A stretch of 37,893 bases of DNA from Nitrospirota bacterium. GTDB lineage: Bacteria; Nitrospirota; Nitrospiria; Nitrospirales; Nitrospiraceae. Shown one piece after another: positions 4,011-8,807 of the stretch (positions are counted from its first letter, which is position 1; the number at the start of each line of letters is the position of its first letter). A program made the translations under genes and the position numbers. Where the stretch lies: positions 1 through 37,893 of the forward strand of contig VBOL01000291.1 in NCBI GenBank assembly GCA_005887945.1, written 5' to 3'. A model generated the notes under the pieces. The model was not told the DNA's origin. It did no database searches and saw nothing but the letters and a program-made list of their open reading frames with translations.

Positions 4011-4808
4011 TCAAGTATGCCTCCCTCCCTCGCGGCTCCGCACGCCCGTCTCGCATGGCATCTCGGCGGTTTCGTCACGAACCCTCGTGAATAATGCGGG
4101 CTGGCCCGCCGTGACCACGTTCTGTCCCGACCGTGCATCGCGCAATCGCGTCAGCGCCTCCGGGCCGCAACAGAACAACAGATCGATTGCCGACATGGCC
4201 GGCATGAATGGTTCATAGACTTGCTGATACATCGGATGTTGGAACTGTTGAATCTCCAGCCTCAACCCGGACGATTCAAACCGCGCGGTGTCCAGATACT
4301 GCTCCCCGCCTGGACCGGAGAAATATCCCGATGCTCCAACGGCATGGCAGAGATCGATCAACCGGTCGGTGGGCTCTTCGCGCGCCTCCCACTCCGACGC
4401 ACAGCGAACGGGCGTCGTAATACCGAAGGCCCCGAGCAGCCAGCGAATCACCGCCATATTCAGCTCGTGCAGCCGCTCCCATGACTCCTTATAGACGCTG
4501 CGCAACTCCGGCAGATAGCGGTCGCGGAATGGCGCCCGCGCATAGTGCATCTCAATGGCGCGCAGGTGCTGACTCCGCCAGGCCACGGCTTGATTGATCC
4601 GGACATCTTTCACCAATTGGCCAAAGTGATGGAGGACCGGCACGGTCACCCAGTGGCACCCGTCTGCAGTTCTGATTCGATTGCGATTTTGCCACTCGTT
4701 CTTCTTGAATTGCACCGAATCCAAGGCAATGAACAGATCCGCTTGATCGATCTTGTCCAGATACCCAAGCCAGGGCAGAAACTGCGGTTGATGAATGGTG
4801 ACACGCAT
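4011..4808 (-). CDS. WbqC-like family protein
   Basis: MRVTIHQPQFLPWLGYLDKIDQADLFIALDSVQFKKNEWQNRNRI matches the WbqC-like family N-terminus. Start trimmed from the ORF track (4835) to MRVTIHQP. Confidence 0.85.
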   Translation of the reverse strand: MRVTIHQPQFLPWLGYLDKIDQADLFIALDSVQFKKNEWQNRNRIRTADGCHWVTVPVLHHFGQLVKDVRINQAVAWRSQHLRAIEMHYARAPFRDRYLPELRSVYKESWERLHELNMAVIRWLLGAFGITTPVRCASEWEAREEPTDRLIDLCHAVGASGYFSGPGGEQYLDTARFESSGLRLEIQQFQHPMYQQVYEPFMPAMSAIDLLFCCGPEALTRLRDARSGQNVVTAGQPALFTRVRDETAEMPCETGVRSREGGRHT

Positions 4809-4814
4809 GAGATC

Positions 4815-4890
4815 AAGTAAGAAGTCTGAAGGCAAAAGGTAAAAGTTTCATGCTTATTTTGCCTTTACACTTTTTCCTTTTTACTTTCGG
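4815..4890. repeat. Two opposing degenerate 7-nt-phased repeat arrays forming an imperfect inverted repeat
   Basis: + strand AAG at 4815, 4822, 4829, 4836, 4843 (exact 7-nt period), then CTT at 4863, 4870, 4877, 4884 (exact 7-nt period). Perfect core arms AAGGCAAAA (4829-4837) / TTTTGCCTT (4857-4865). Confidence 0.8.
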
Positions 4891-6385
4891 CGTCAACAGA
4901 CGACGAAATCGGTCCCACGAAGATCGGATTACTCAGGAGCTCGCCGCTGCCGGTGATCTCCACTCGATAGGTCATCCGTTCTGCTGTCGGCACAGTTGTG
5001 TCGGCCCAGTCGGCGCGGAACGGTGTCTCACCTGCCAACAGAGCGACCACCTGGCCGGAACGAATCACCCGCACCTTTACAGGATGGCGCTCTCGATCGG
5101 TCGCCGTGACGGAGAGCCGGACCATGAGATCGCGAGCCCCGCCTGGATCCAGATTGTCACCAACCGATGCTGATTTGGTTTCACCCTGGCACAGAACTCG
5201 GAACTCATCCAGTCGAAGCTGGACGTGATGATCGCCATCTCCCACCGCATAGGAGTGACCGGACCGAAGCGCCTCTAGCACGCCAGCGGCTGTCCGTTCT
5301 TTCACCCAAAGCGCGGTCACAAGTCGATGCAGGTCCTTACCGGCATCGCTCAATCCATGAAACGCCAGCTCCCCGATGAGCACCGGTGTTGGCCGCGATT
5401 CATTCGCAGGCAATTGCAGCAGCCGATCCCATAGTTCACCCGGCTTGACGCTTGTTCGCCCATCCTGATAGAGCCCGCCAAATCCGGTATACCCCGTCGT
5501 CTGCAGCAATGCCTCAGAGTGGGGCTCCGTCTTTACCGTAACGGTTCCCAATGGCCCAGCAGCATATTCATGAAAGTCTCGCGCTTCAGTCATCGACCAA
5601 AAGACAAGCCCACCCTTGTCCCTCACATCATCGATGAGGGCCTGATAGGGACGATACCCCAGCCGGTCGTCATACGAACTAAACGCAGGCTGACTCAGAG
5701 GCCAGGCATTGACCACCAGCGCCACCGCAAGGACGACCAGGATACAGGCGATAGTTCGCCGTGAGGATCGCCGATCGGTACTGCGCCTGAGTGGCCGCCA
5801 CAGCCAAACTGCGGGAACGACCAACAAGATCGGCACGCCATTCACCGCCCCCCGCCAATCGAATGTATAGGAGCCCGGGTTCCCACTCGCAGGAAGGGAC
5901 CGATAGTCCTCCGGATTGGTCAGGCCGAGCACCAGCAGATTGCGTTGGGCATTGTGCATCGTCAACGTTTGTCTCAATAGTGAACCGGTCCAATGGTAAT
6001 AGGGGGCGACCTCGACACCCGGCAGGATGATCAGCTTCGGGTGACGGCTCTGCACTGCCGCAATCTCGTCCAAGTACCGTTCGATCCCATACTCCAACAC
6101 AGATGGAAAACGGACCTGTCGTTTCAAGAGACCAGGCAAGGGCCAGAGTCCATACTGATAGCGGAGAGAAAAGTTGTCGGTCAAAATCAGTACATCCAGC
6201 CCGAGTTGTTCCGCCCGTTCGGCCAGCGCCTCAACGGTCAGTTCACCGGTACTGGCAGTACTATGGACGTGCACCGTGGCCAACAACTGCTGTCGGTCAT
6301 CCGATGCCTGTGCGCGCGCAACAGAACCTGACAGGCATGACACCACGATCATAGATGACAGTATCAGTCGACGCGTACATTTCAT
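4865..6385 (-). CDS. Membrane-anchored PHP-domain protein
   Basis: LLATVHVHSTASTGELTVEALAERAEQLGLDVLILTDNF (PHP motif) and IILPGVEV. N-terminal signal-like segment (MKCTRRLILSSMIVVSCLSGSVARAQA) and two internal hydrophobic segments. Start trimmed to MKCTRR, 13 nt after the upstream gene. Confidence 0.75.
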   Translation of the reverse strand: MKCTRRLILSSMIVVSCLSGSVARAQASDDRQQLLATVHVHSTASTGELTVEALAERAEQLGLDVLILTDNFSLRYQYGLWPLPGLLKRQVRFPSVLEYGIERYLDEIAAVQSRHPKLIILPGVEVAPYYHWTGSLLRQTLTMHNAQRNLLVLGLTNPEDYRSLPASGNPGSYTFDWRGAVNGVPILLVVPAVWLWRPLRRSTDRRSSRRTIACILVVLAVALVVNAWPLSQPAFSSYDDRLGYRPYQALIDDVRDKGGLVFWSMTEARDFHEYAAGPLGTVTVKTEPHSEALLQTTGYTGFGGLYQDGRTSVKPGELWDRLLQLPANESRPTPVLIGELAFHGLSDAGKDLHRLVTALWVKERTAAGVLEALRSGHSYAVGDGDHHVQLRLDEFRVLCQGETKSASVGDNLDPGGARDLMVRLSVTATDRERHPVKVRVIRSGQVVALLAGETPFRADWADTTVPTAERMTYRVEITGSGELLSNPIFVGPISSSVDAESKKEKV

Positions 6386-6398
6386 CTGTCCGTCTCGC

Positions 6399-8807
6399 TT
6401 ACAGATGAACACTGAGCGCCTCGGCAAAGATTGATTCGATTGCATGAACCATTGAGACCGACCCATATCGGCTGTCCACGCTACAGCTCGCTGCCAGGCC
6501 TAATTGCGTTGCCCACTCCGGTCGATCAAGTAACCGACGCAGTGCCTCCGCCAATGCACCGGCATCACCAGGAAGCACCAGCAAACCAGTTCGCTCGTGG
6601 CTGATGACGGCTGGAATTCCACCGACGCGGGAAGCAATCACCGGCAGTCCGGCTGCCATGGCTTCGATCAGCGCACGCCCCATCCCTTCATTGAGCGAAG
6701 GCAAGACGAACAGATCCATCCCGGCGAGACAGGCCTCGATGTCATCCCTGTGACCCAAGAGATGTACGGCATCGCGGAGACCGGCCAACTCCGATTGCTG
6801 CAGAAGTGCGTCATGCCGATCCCCACTACCGATGATCACGAGATGGAGGGAGGGAAAGTCCGGCTTCAACTTAGCGACGGCCTCGATCAGGTATTCATGG
6901 CCTTTAACATCGGTGAGCCACCCGACCGATCCGACGATCAGCGCTTCCGGTGGACAGCCAAACCAATCCGGCTGCTGTTTCCCCTGAACCCTCGCCCGTC
7001 CGAACCGCTCACGATCGATCCCGCTAGGCACGACGACGAACCGGTCGGCCTCGCCGACAGCGCGATCGAGGTGATCCTGCCGTTCCGCTTCCGTCAGCGC
7101 AATCAATCGATCCGTGAGCACACTCAGCACCCGTTCGATCTGAAGAAACAGCCAGGATCGGAAGGGACCGAAATGTCCGTAGAACACATGGCCGTGCGGC
7201 GTATGGACAATGACTGGCACTCTCGCTAGCCAGGCAGCCACTCGTCCTAACACACCGGCCTTCGATGTATGGGTATGGACCAGTGCCGGCTGCTCTTGCC
7301 GGAACAGGCGAATCAATTGCCACAGGGCCTGTGCATCCTTGATGGGATGGACCTCTCTCGTCAGCGAGGGTAGCAGCATCCAGCGAATTGCAGCCTTCTC
7401 AAGTTGCCGACAATTCTCCTCGGTCGCTGCCTGGCCGCCTTGCGCATCCCAACAACCTGGATATCCGGCGACCACAAGCGGCTCGAACTGCGCGCGGTCA
7501 TGGCCGAGTGCGGTCAGCATCGTGTTCTGCGCTGACCCGCCATAGTCGAGGCGCGTAATCACATGGATCACCTTCCGCGCCCTAGGAGCCTGTTTGTCCT
7601 TCGACAGGCTCGCGAATAGACGATCCAGATCGGCCGTGTGCGCCGCCCAGTTGTAGCGCCGTTCCACGACCTCCCGACCTTTCTTTAAGAAGCGCTCTCG
7701 CTTACCCGGTTGATCACGAAACCGCTTCAGCAGCAATCGTAATGTCTTTGCGAGAGACAATCCGTCTGTCCCTTCCGTCACAAGCAGCGGATCGACCGTG
7801 CTCAATACTTCTGGAATCGCGCCGACCGGGGTCCCCACCACCGGCGTGCCGCAGGCCAGCGCCTCGACCGTCACTAAGCCGAACCCTTCGAGTTGCAGCG
7901 TCGGCAACACGACCAAGTCAGAGGCCTGGTAGTATTTCGCCAGCTGATCCTCCGGCACGAATCCGAGCAACTGCACGGAGTCTTGTAATCCCCTGCTGTG
8001 AATCAGTTCCTCCAGTCGAGGGCGCAGCTGGCCCTCCCCGCCGATCAGGAGCAGAAGATTCCGCTGCTCCTCCCCGAGCATCGTCATAGCCTCGAGAAGA
8101 TTTTCCAACCCCATGCGGGGTACCAGATTGCGAACCGTAAACAACAGCGTGCGGCTCTCCGGTAACTTGAGCTCCCGTCTGATCTCGTTCCTATCGTGTG
8201 CCGGATAGAACGTGGCCGGATCGGCTGCGCCGGGAACCACGGTGATGTCCTTCGGCGCAATTCCGTGCGTGGCCATTACTTGTTGCTTCATGAATTCGCT
8301 CAAGACGATCACATGATGACAGCGGCGGATCACCATTCGTTCAATCCAACGACGGGCGCGCCCGCTCAGCCGCCGCCTGACCCGTTCCAGCGTCGTCGCC
8401 GCCTGTTCTGCCCTGGTGAGGTACTCCTCATGCGCCAATGAGTGACAGACATAGACCCAGAGGCTGACCATCCCATAGCGGAACAAGATCGGGCCCAGTC
8501 CAGCCAGTGATTGATGAATCATAGCGATATCGACAGGACAGGCCTGCCGCGTTAGATCAAATGCCCGAAGAGAATTCTGTACTGAAGACCAGACAAAGGC
8601 CGGCTCGCTGGTTCGCGTCACAGGATACCGCCGTTCGGTCACGCTTCCAATCGATAGGTTGGCCTCCGCAGACTCGAAGGGAGCCCGCGCGATCACGTGC
8701 ACGTAATGGCCCAGTTTGGCGAGCCCCAACGCCTGCTGCCGGAGGACTCGCTCGGCGCCACCGATTACCCGTTCGACCGTGACTTCTGCAAACAGGACGA
8801 TCTTCAT
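6399..8807 (-). CDS. Tandem GT4-GT4 (GT-B fold) glycosyltransferase fusion
   Basis: Starts MKIVLFAEVTVERVIGGAERVLRQQALGLAKLGH. First C-terminal domain has YYQASDLVVLPTLQLEGFGLVTVEALACGTPVVGTPVGAIPEVL. A second N-terminal domain begins KVIHVITRLDYGGSAQN, and the second C-terminal domain has MDLFVLPSLNEGMGRALIEAMAAGLPVIASRVGGIP. Start at 8807 overlaps the upstream stop (ATGA). Confidence 0.88.
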   Translation of the reverse strand: MKIVLFAEVTVERVIGGAERVLRQQALGLAKLGHYVHVIARAPFESAEANLSIGSVTERRYPVTRTSEPAFVWSSVQNSLRAFDLTRQACPVDIAMIHQSLAGLGPILFRYGMVSLWVYVCHSLAHEEYLTRAEQAATTLERVRRRLSGRARRWIERMVIRRCHHVIVLSEFMKQQVMATHGIAPKDITVVPGAADPATFYPAHDRNEIRRELKLPESRTLLFTVRNLVPRMGLENLLEAMTMLGEEQRNLLLLIGGEGQLRPRLEELIHSRGLQDSVQLLGFVPEDQLAKYYQASDLVVLPTLQLEGFGLVTVEALACGTPVVGTPVGAIPEVLSTVDPLLVTEGTDGLSLAKTLRLLLKRFRDQPGKRERFLKKGREVVERRYNWAAHTADLDRLFASLSKDKQAPRARKVIHVITRLDYGGSAQNTMLTALGHDRAQFEPLVVAGYPGCWDAQGGQAATEENCRQLEKAAIRWMLLPSLTREVHPIKDAQALWQLIRLFRQEQPALVHTHTSKAGVLGRVAAWLARVPVIVHTPHGHVFYGHFGPFRSWLFLQIERVLSVLTDRLIALTEAERQDHLDRAVGEADRFVVVPSGIDRERFGRARVQGKQQPDWFGCPPEALIVGSVGWLTDVKGHEYLIEAVAKLKPDFPSLHLVIIGSGDRHDALLQQSELAGLRDAVHLLGHRDDIEACLAGMDLFVLPSLNEGMGRALIEAMAAGLPVIASRVGGIPAVISHERTGLLVLPGDAGALAEALRRLLDRPEWATQLGLAASCSVDSRYGSVSMVHAIESIFAEALSVHL
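7586..7611. repeat. Inverted repeat GAGCCTGT-10nt-ACAGGCTC within the GT-GT linker
   Basis: + strand GAGCCTGTTTGTCCTTCGACAGGCTC read directly; arms 7586-7593 and 7604-7611 are perfect reverse complements. Confidence 0.85.

Follow-up and report, generated by a model that had tools for sequence, protein, structure and literature searches.

Opposing heptad arrays at a PHP/WbqC gene junction belong to a dispersed intergenic family of Nitrospira whose repeat unit appears to be replaced at conserved sites

The element between the PHP and WbqC-like genes

In a 37,893-nt stretch of Nitrospira DNA (hereafter the window), two short repeat arrays facing each other across a small centre separate a PHP-domain protein gene from a WbqC-like gene, the latter having its closest named relatives in Nitrospira and other Nitrospirota. 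Read along the minus strand, the PHP gene comes first, followed by the element and then by the WbqC gene, whose ATG lies just beyond the left arm (Table 1). A sequence-only reading of this DNA had described five AAG and four CTT triplets at exact 7-nt steps in opposite orientation, a perfect 9-bp core shared by the two arms, and a PHP C-terminus (ESKKEKV) ending inside the right arm; the coordinates of all three were verified, with the translated PHP frame reaching its stop codon at 4865-4867.

Table 1. Features at the junction, in window coordinates
Feature	Position	Strand	Description
WbqC-like gene	4011..4808	-	Pfam WbqC E=2e-73; ATG at 4808; same ATG start in relatives
Left array	4815..4845		Five AAG-phased degenerate heptads, AAAAGNN type on the + strand; exact 7-nt spacing (AAG at 4815, 4822, 4829, 4836, 4843)
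AAGGCAAAA	4829..4837	+	Left half of the perfect 9-bp inverted core
Centre/loop	4846..4856		Sequence unlike the loops of this genome's other copies
Right array	4857..4887		Opposing heptads, NNCTTTT type; exact 7-nt spacing (CTTT at 4863, 4870, 4877, 4884)
TTTTGCCTT	4857..4865	+	Right half of the perfect 9-bp inverted core
PHP-domain protein gene	4865..6466	-	Pfam PHP E=5e-6; last codons (ESKKEKV) and stop enter the right array

When the entire window was scanned for self-matches at lag 7, at least 18 of 28 positions matched at just two places, which are the two arms, and the left array gave the top score. The repeat is highly degenerate (Tandem Repeats Finder: 2.7 copies, score 31), and its units run head to tail within arms that oppose each other, a long one-orientation run of near-exact unit copies being absent from the window copy. 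A heptad model with five constant positions and a neighbouring pair of variable ones was rejected, as phase-shuffled profiles score as well. Folded in silico, the RNA of the window copy shows no unusual stability (z = -1.1 vs. shuffles), no terminator-like site (a GC-rich stem followed by a U-run) was found at 4800-4900, and no Rfam family matched the copy, the best chance match reaching 21.9 bits against a gathering threshold of 76.

Further copies in the genome and the genus

Searching the window's own genome (G000) with a 121-base query gave two more matches at 76%, and opposing AAAAG/CTTTT heptads also occur on contigs C21, C74, C138 and C179; C123/C183, C121 and C227 hold related places. 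These copies have the 7-mer in common and unrelated loops; no conserved core, loop or fixed end sequences were found among them. Second copies therefore exist, and the sequence-only reading of a dispersed, intergenic, opposing heptad element was borne out, but its suggestion of a mobile repeat inserted as a unit was not, because copies at different sites share the 7-mer and neither loop nor ends. Two of the related places (L002, G000 C183:297-354, and L003, C123:143-200) have near-identical arrays and flanks and both lie at contig ends; they represent a locus that was duplicated, or else an artefact of assembly or strain variation.

Across 41 related genomes, the AAAAGNN pattern gave 45 forward matches compared with 4 for a reversed-pattern control (several matches may be registers of one element), while GTGATNN gave 41 vs. 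0 and GCTGANN 9 vs. 0. When 1.44 Mb sampled from three Nitrospira genomes was scanned without regard to the unit, 34 period-7 and 29 period-9 opposing pairs were identified, compared with 0-4 per sample at other periods, and ten 400-kb Markov simulations, run at a slightly stricter threshold, yielded no period-7 opposing pairs. The opposing pairs are mostly intergenic, and their split among gap types (31 co-directional, 13 convergent, 9 divergent) resembles that seen for every gap of 60 nt or more (397, 173 and 166, respectively). Several unit classes stand side by side in a single genome, and the copies typically pair arrays on opposite strands across a variable spacing. Many of the genomes compared are fragmented MAGs, and these comparisons cover sampled stretches of the own genome and use simple ORF calls. 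Together, these results establish that the window feature is one copy of an intergenic family dispersed through this Nitrospira genome and the genus, and that the family's design is a loop, unrelated between copies, flanked by opposing arrays whose units are degenerate 7-mers or, in some cases, 9-mers.

More elaborate arrangements were also observed, such as nested composites at G000 C281:5447-5594 (L293) and C179:6638-6758 (L302), in which outer arms of 9-mers (GCGAGACGG type) enclose inner arms of 7-mers (CGAAGTT type). One 400-kb stretch of another genome (G019 C8:1-400000; L220-L239) contains about 20 opposing 9-mer arrays (GTTTATCTG type), a density far above that in G011. In another phylum, an Omnitrophota contig (WJMG01000071.1; L088) carries AAAAGTN/CTTTTNN opposing arrays at 4848-4989, 5691-5845 and 6516-6668, around and downstream of a WbqC-like gene.

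Unit turnover and arm covariation at orthologous junctions

We compared orthologous junctions at three sites: PHP/WbqC, the site of the C138 copy between genes that we take, judging from their encoded sequence rather than a family search, to be nuoE and nuoF, and a third on contig C179. At PHP/WbqC an array (at least 14/21 lag-7 or at least 16/21 lag-9 matches) was called in 14 of 46 Nitrospirota loci, window included, and at nuoE/nuoF 24 of 28 species had at least one arm with at least 14/21 lag-7 matches, presence rates that are inflated by the choice of junctions, all three having been picked because the own genome has copies there, a choice that does not inflate unit turnover or arm covariation. 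The units found across the three junctions comprise AAAAGNN, AAAATGC, CGTGAAA, GGCGTSA, TCAGCNN, GTGATNN and AATGGTT.

Within the PHP/WbqC junction, AAAAGNN is carried by the window, L039 and, as a single arm, N. moscoviensis (L061); GTGATNN by L041, L042, L048 and L052; GCTGANN by L040, L044, L046, L049 and L051; and 9-mers by L074 and L078. The remaining loci have no array or weak traces, so that array-free junctions exist, and the presence/absence comparison proposed with the sequence-only reading finds the element in some relatives and missing in others. A contig labelled Gammaproteobacteria (JAHKKL010000131.1; L076) has a WbqC locus and 9-mer array nearly the same as those of the Nitrospirota locus L078, and is therefore probably mis-binned.

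At nuoE/nuoF the units are AAAAGGT, AAAATGC, CGTGAAA, CGTGAAG, GGCGTSA, GGGGTAA and AATGGTT, yet the periodicity summed over the 28 species stands out sharply (z = 28 at lag 7 and z = 22 at lag 14). The C179 junction is likewise periodic (lag 7 z = 23), with at least 7 unit classes as read by eye; on a tree of the flanking DNA, unit class changed at least 12 times among 23 species. GC-rich unit classes occupy the same sites in relatives. Taken as sequence comparisons, these findings suggest that the design persists at conserved sites while the 7-letter sequence is repeatedly replaced, which is the main point and one that the sequence-only reading missed. Separately, the C74 junction in L199, L202, L203, L204, L206 and L210 holds a different GC-rich palindromic insert (GCAGGATGCTGAAAAAG...TTTTTGAGCATCCTGC), which looks like a conventional MITE-type Nitrospira repeat.

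The two arms change together. Own-arm complementarity at nuoE/nuoF is 33.7, compared with 24.0 +/- 1.4 when arms are permuted among species (maximum over 5000 permutations, 29.0), and at C179 it is 36.7, compared with 21.8 +/- 1.6 (maximum over 5000, 28.3). With flank distance held constant, left-arm unit distance at nuoE/nuoF predicts right-arm unit distance (partial Mantel r = 0.64, 0/2000 permutations), and unit distance itself shows no correlation with the distance of the flanks (r = -0.13 and 0.01). Individual pairs of species point to replacement as a cassette: L339 and L346 have flanks 97/95% identical with arrays 43% identical, L327 and L328 have flanks 97/95% identical with arrays 55% identical, and L328 and L337 have arrays 94% identical with flanks of 91/86%. 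Some unit transitions look gradual, such as those in L165 and L171, where mixed AAAAGNN/AAAATGN arms were read by eye; the same inspection placed the AAAAGNN and AAAATGN classes within common outer boundaries at nuoE/nuoF and C179. On the strength of these comparisons, the two arms are seen to carry matching units, and the entire arm-loop-arm stretch may differ completely between close relatives whose flanking genes do not.

How the element meets the upstream reading frame also varies among species. The sequence-only reading held that the repeat supplies both tail and stop codon of the PHP protein, which stands for the window but not as a general rule. A KKEK tail was found solely in the window and L039, both with periodic DNA, other relatives having different tails, and thus no KKEK tail encoded by non-periodic DNA turned up. 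The NuoE frame is open through the first arm and loop in some species, and in L168 and L177 it is apparently open through nearly the entire element, with a stop 90-96 nt in, so that translation of the array would add a 30-residue tail to NuoE. The element often supplies the upstream stop codon but need not do so. The idea that it serves to place stops in all frames was rejected as inconsistent across species, because some nuoE frames read through the arm.

Candidate processes and comparison with known systems

A DNA-level process fits these observations because period and complementarity are kept, the unit changes in both arms, and gene orientation matters little. Our preferred reading, which we hold tentatively and put at roughly 45%, is that of a site-bound DNA quasi-palindrome in which slippage and template switching may homogenise the arms and the cassette would now and then be exchanged. 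During replication, each arm would pair with the other and with itself in registers shifted by multiples of 7, and slippage and template switching could then copy units within and between arms, keeping period and complementarity while the unit drifts (e.g., from AAAAGNN to AAAATGN by way of mixed arms). A fork that breaks at the hairpin might let one cassette be swapped for another, and the element would be tolerated between stop and start codon, where it can supply the upstream protein's end; any effect on mRNA would probably be secondary. Template switching is documented as creating and homogenising inverted repeats (PMC8794818, PMC8604942). Most copies, however, mismatch at several heptad positions, which counts against this quasi-palindrome reading, as in-register template switching should give perfectly complementary arms. 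Nor does slippage with template switching explain the reuse of one unit at unlinked sites with unrelated loops, or the preference for periods 7 and 9.

Covariation between arms is commonly read as proof that an RNA structure is under selection. The corresponding alternative is a REP-like intercistronic stem-loop under selection, protecting or separating two messages, in which pairing alone matters and units are free to co-change; this account is weaker than the DNA-level one and rather unlikely in our judgement, but still live. It predicts the covariation seen across species at nuoE/nuoF and C179, and at nuoE/nuoF own folds are stabler than chimeric ones (-31.4 vs. -25.8 kcal/mol), although sense and antisense folds there are of near-equal stability (-31.4 vs. 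-30.4) and the window copy folds scarcely better than shuffles. About half of copies lie between co-directional genes, but those in divergent or convergent gaps are about as frequent as such gaps themselves, and in some species the NuoE frame passes through first arm and loop. Sense-strand mismatches favour G.U over A.C in nonamers (43 vs. 22) and in heptads (114 vs. 87; ratio 1.31, bootstrap 0.99-1.76, p = 0.07), the heptad count softening, once more copies were pooled, an early reading of no G.U bias in heptads (39:32, 26:28). This 114:87 bias hints at some RNA-level constraint and is suggestive rather than decisive, because orthologues are non-independent and a transcription-linked C-to-T bias could equally produce an excess of the same sign. 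With a weak window fold, no gene-orientation bias and a borderline G.U signal, the mRNA processing or polarity role proposed in the sequence-only reading is not supported. Since the arms covary across many unrelated units at conserved sites, with a sign of RNA selection that is weak at most, the family offers a test bed for selection vs. template-switch mutation.

Other accounts of the same patterns appear less probable. These may be self-renewing intergenic elements that inherit an architecture and not a sequence, a dedicated process rewriting or swapping both arms at fixed junctions from a lineage-specific unit repertoire; we regard this as improbable, and equally so its candidate process, a repeat-adding polymerase or recombination pathway. 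Still less probable is a ribbon-helix-helix or nucleoid protein binding contiguous 7-bp units in opposing orientation, for which there are precedents in Omega of pSM19035, which binds contiguous 7-bp WATCACW repeats, direct or inverted (PMC9499535), one Nitrospira class being ATCACNN, and in the paired opposing arrays of Geobacter metallireducens, interpreted as global-regulator sites (PMC2700814). A specific binding protein would hardly permit what is seen here, namely several unit classes coexisting in one genome and, where the flanks of two species are 95-97% identical, a different class at the same site. Insertion of a non-autonomous transposable element of MITE or REP type would account for copies that are dispersed, intergenic, inverted in their arms and found at a given junction in some relatives but not in others, but we consider it very unlikely: the G000 copies share a unit and neither loop nor fixed end sequences, and two of the junctions hold some form of array in almost all species, so that it is replaced and not simply gained. 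Chance low-complexity DNA is already refuted, for although the window repeats are degenerate and A/T-rich and score just 31, the window has just two such places and they form the pair, Markov simulations yield no opposing pairs, and relatives carry GC-rich unit classes at the same sites.

Near-identical neighbouring genes can flank completely different intergenic cassettes of one design, and the family would account for much unannotated intergenic DNA in Nitrospira and apparently, from one Omnitrophota contig, in some other phyla. In the open-licence literature we found no description of heptamer or intergenic arrays of this kind in Nitrospira, nor of unit replacement at conserved sites. The STRR heptads of cyanobacteria are tandem 7-mers in intergenic DNA; to our knowledge they form direct arrays and not opposing pairs. 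Heptanucleotide long simple sequence repeats are attributed to Mrazek et al. 2007 where that work is cited in PMC4679880. The TAACTGA repeats of Beggiatoaceae resemble the present family in being intergenic heptads that in some cases run over the end of the upstream ORF and provide stops in all frames, but they repeat a single invariant unit in direct orientation, mostly close before start codons, with one inverted case in 170 sets (PMC4679880). Omega/parS of pSM19035 shares the contiguous 7-bp units, direct or inverted, with one Nitrospira class resembling WATCACW; it serves as a plasmid centromere, its unit is fixed and it has a cognate protein (PMC9499535), and WATCACW units are absent from the AAAAGNN-type window copy, ATCACNN occurring in some relatives only. 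In template-switch quasipalindromes, inverted arms likewise co-change without two independent substitutions, but they lack tandem 7-nt arm structure and cassette exchange at conserved sites (PMC8794818, PMC8604942).

The closest description found is that of the Geobacter metallireducens "predicted global regulator binding sites" of classes 1-3, which share the opposing tandem-array architecture. These are opposite-strand pairs at variable distance, each site comprising 3-5 tandem octa- or heptanucleotides (GTTGCTYN, TCTCCGTS or MTYCTGA); they are multicopy, some lie between genes of one pathway (proBA), and they are interpreted as IHF/HU sites, regulator binding being hypothetical in the source paper (PMC2700814). 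Their units differ from the AAAAGNN of the window and from the other Nitrospira classes, and the text consulted deals with one genome and mentions neither a comparison of orthologous sites nor covarying arms nor replaced units (PMC2700814). While the open-licence literature searched contained no account of unit turnover at conserved sites, the paired opposing-array architecture itself is already known from Geobacter.
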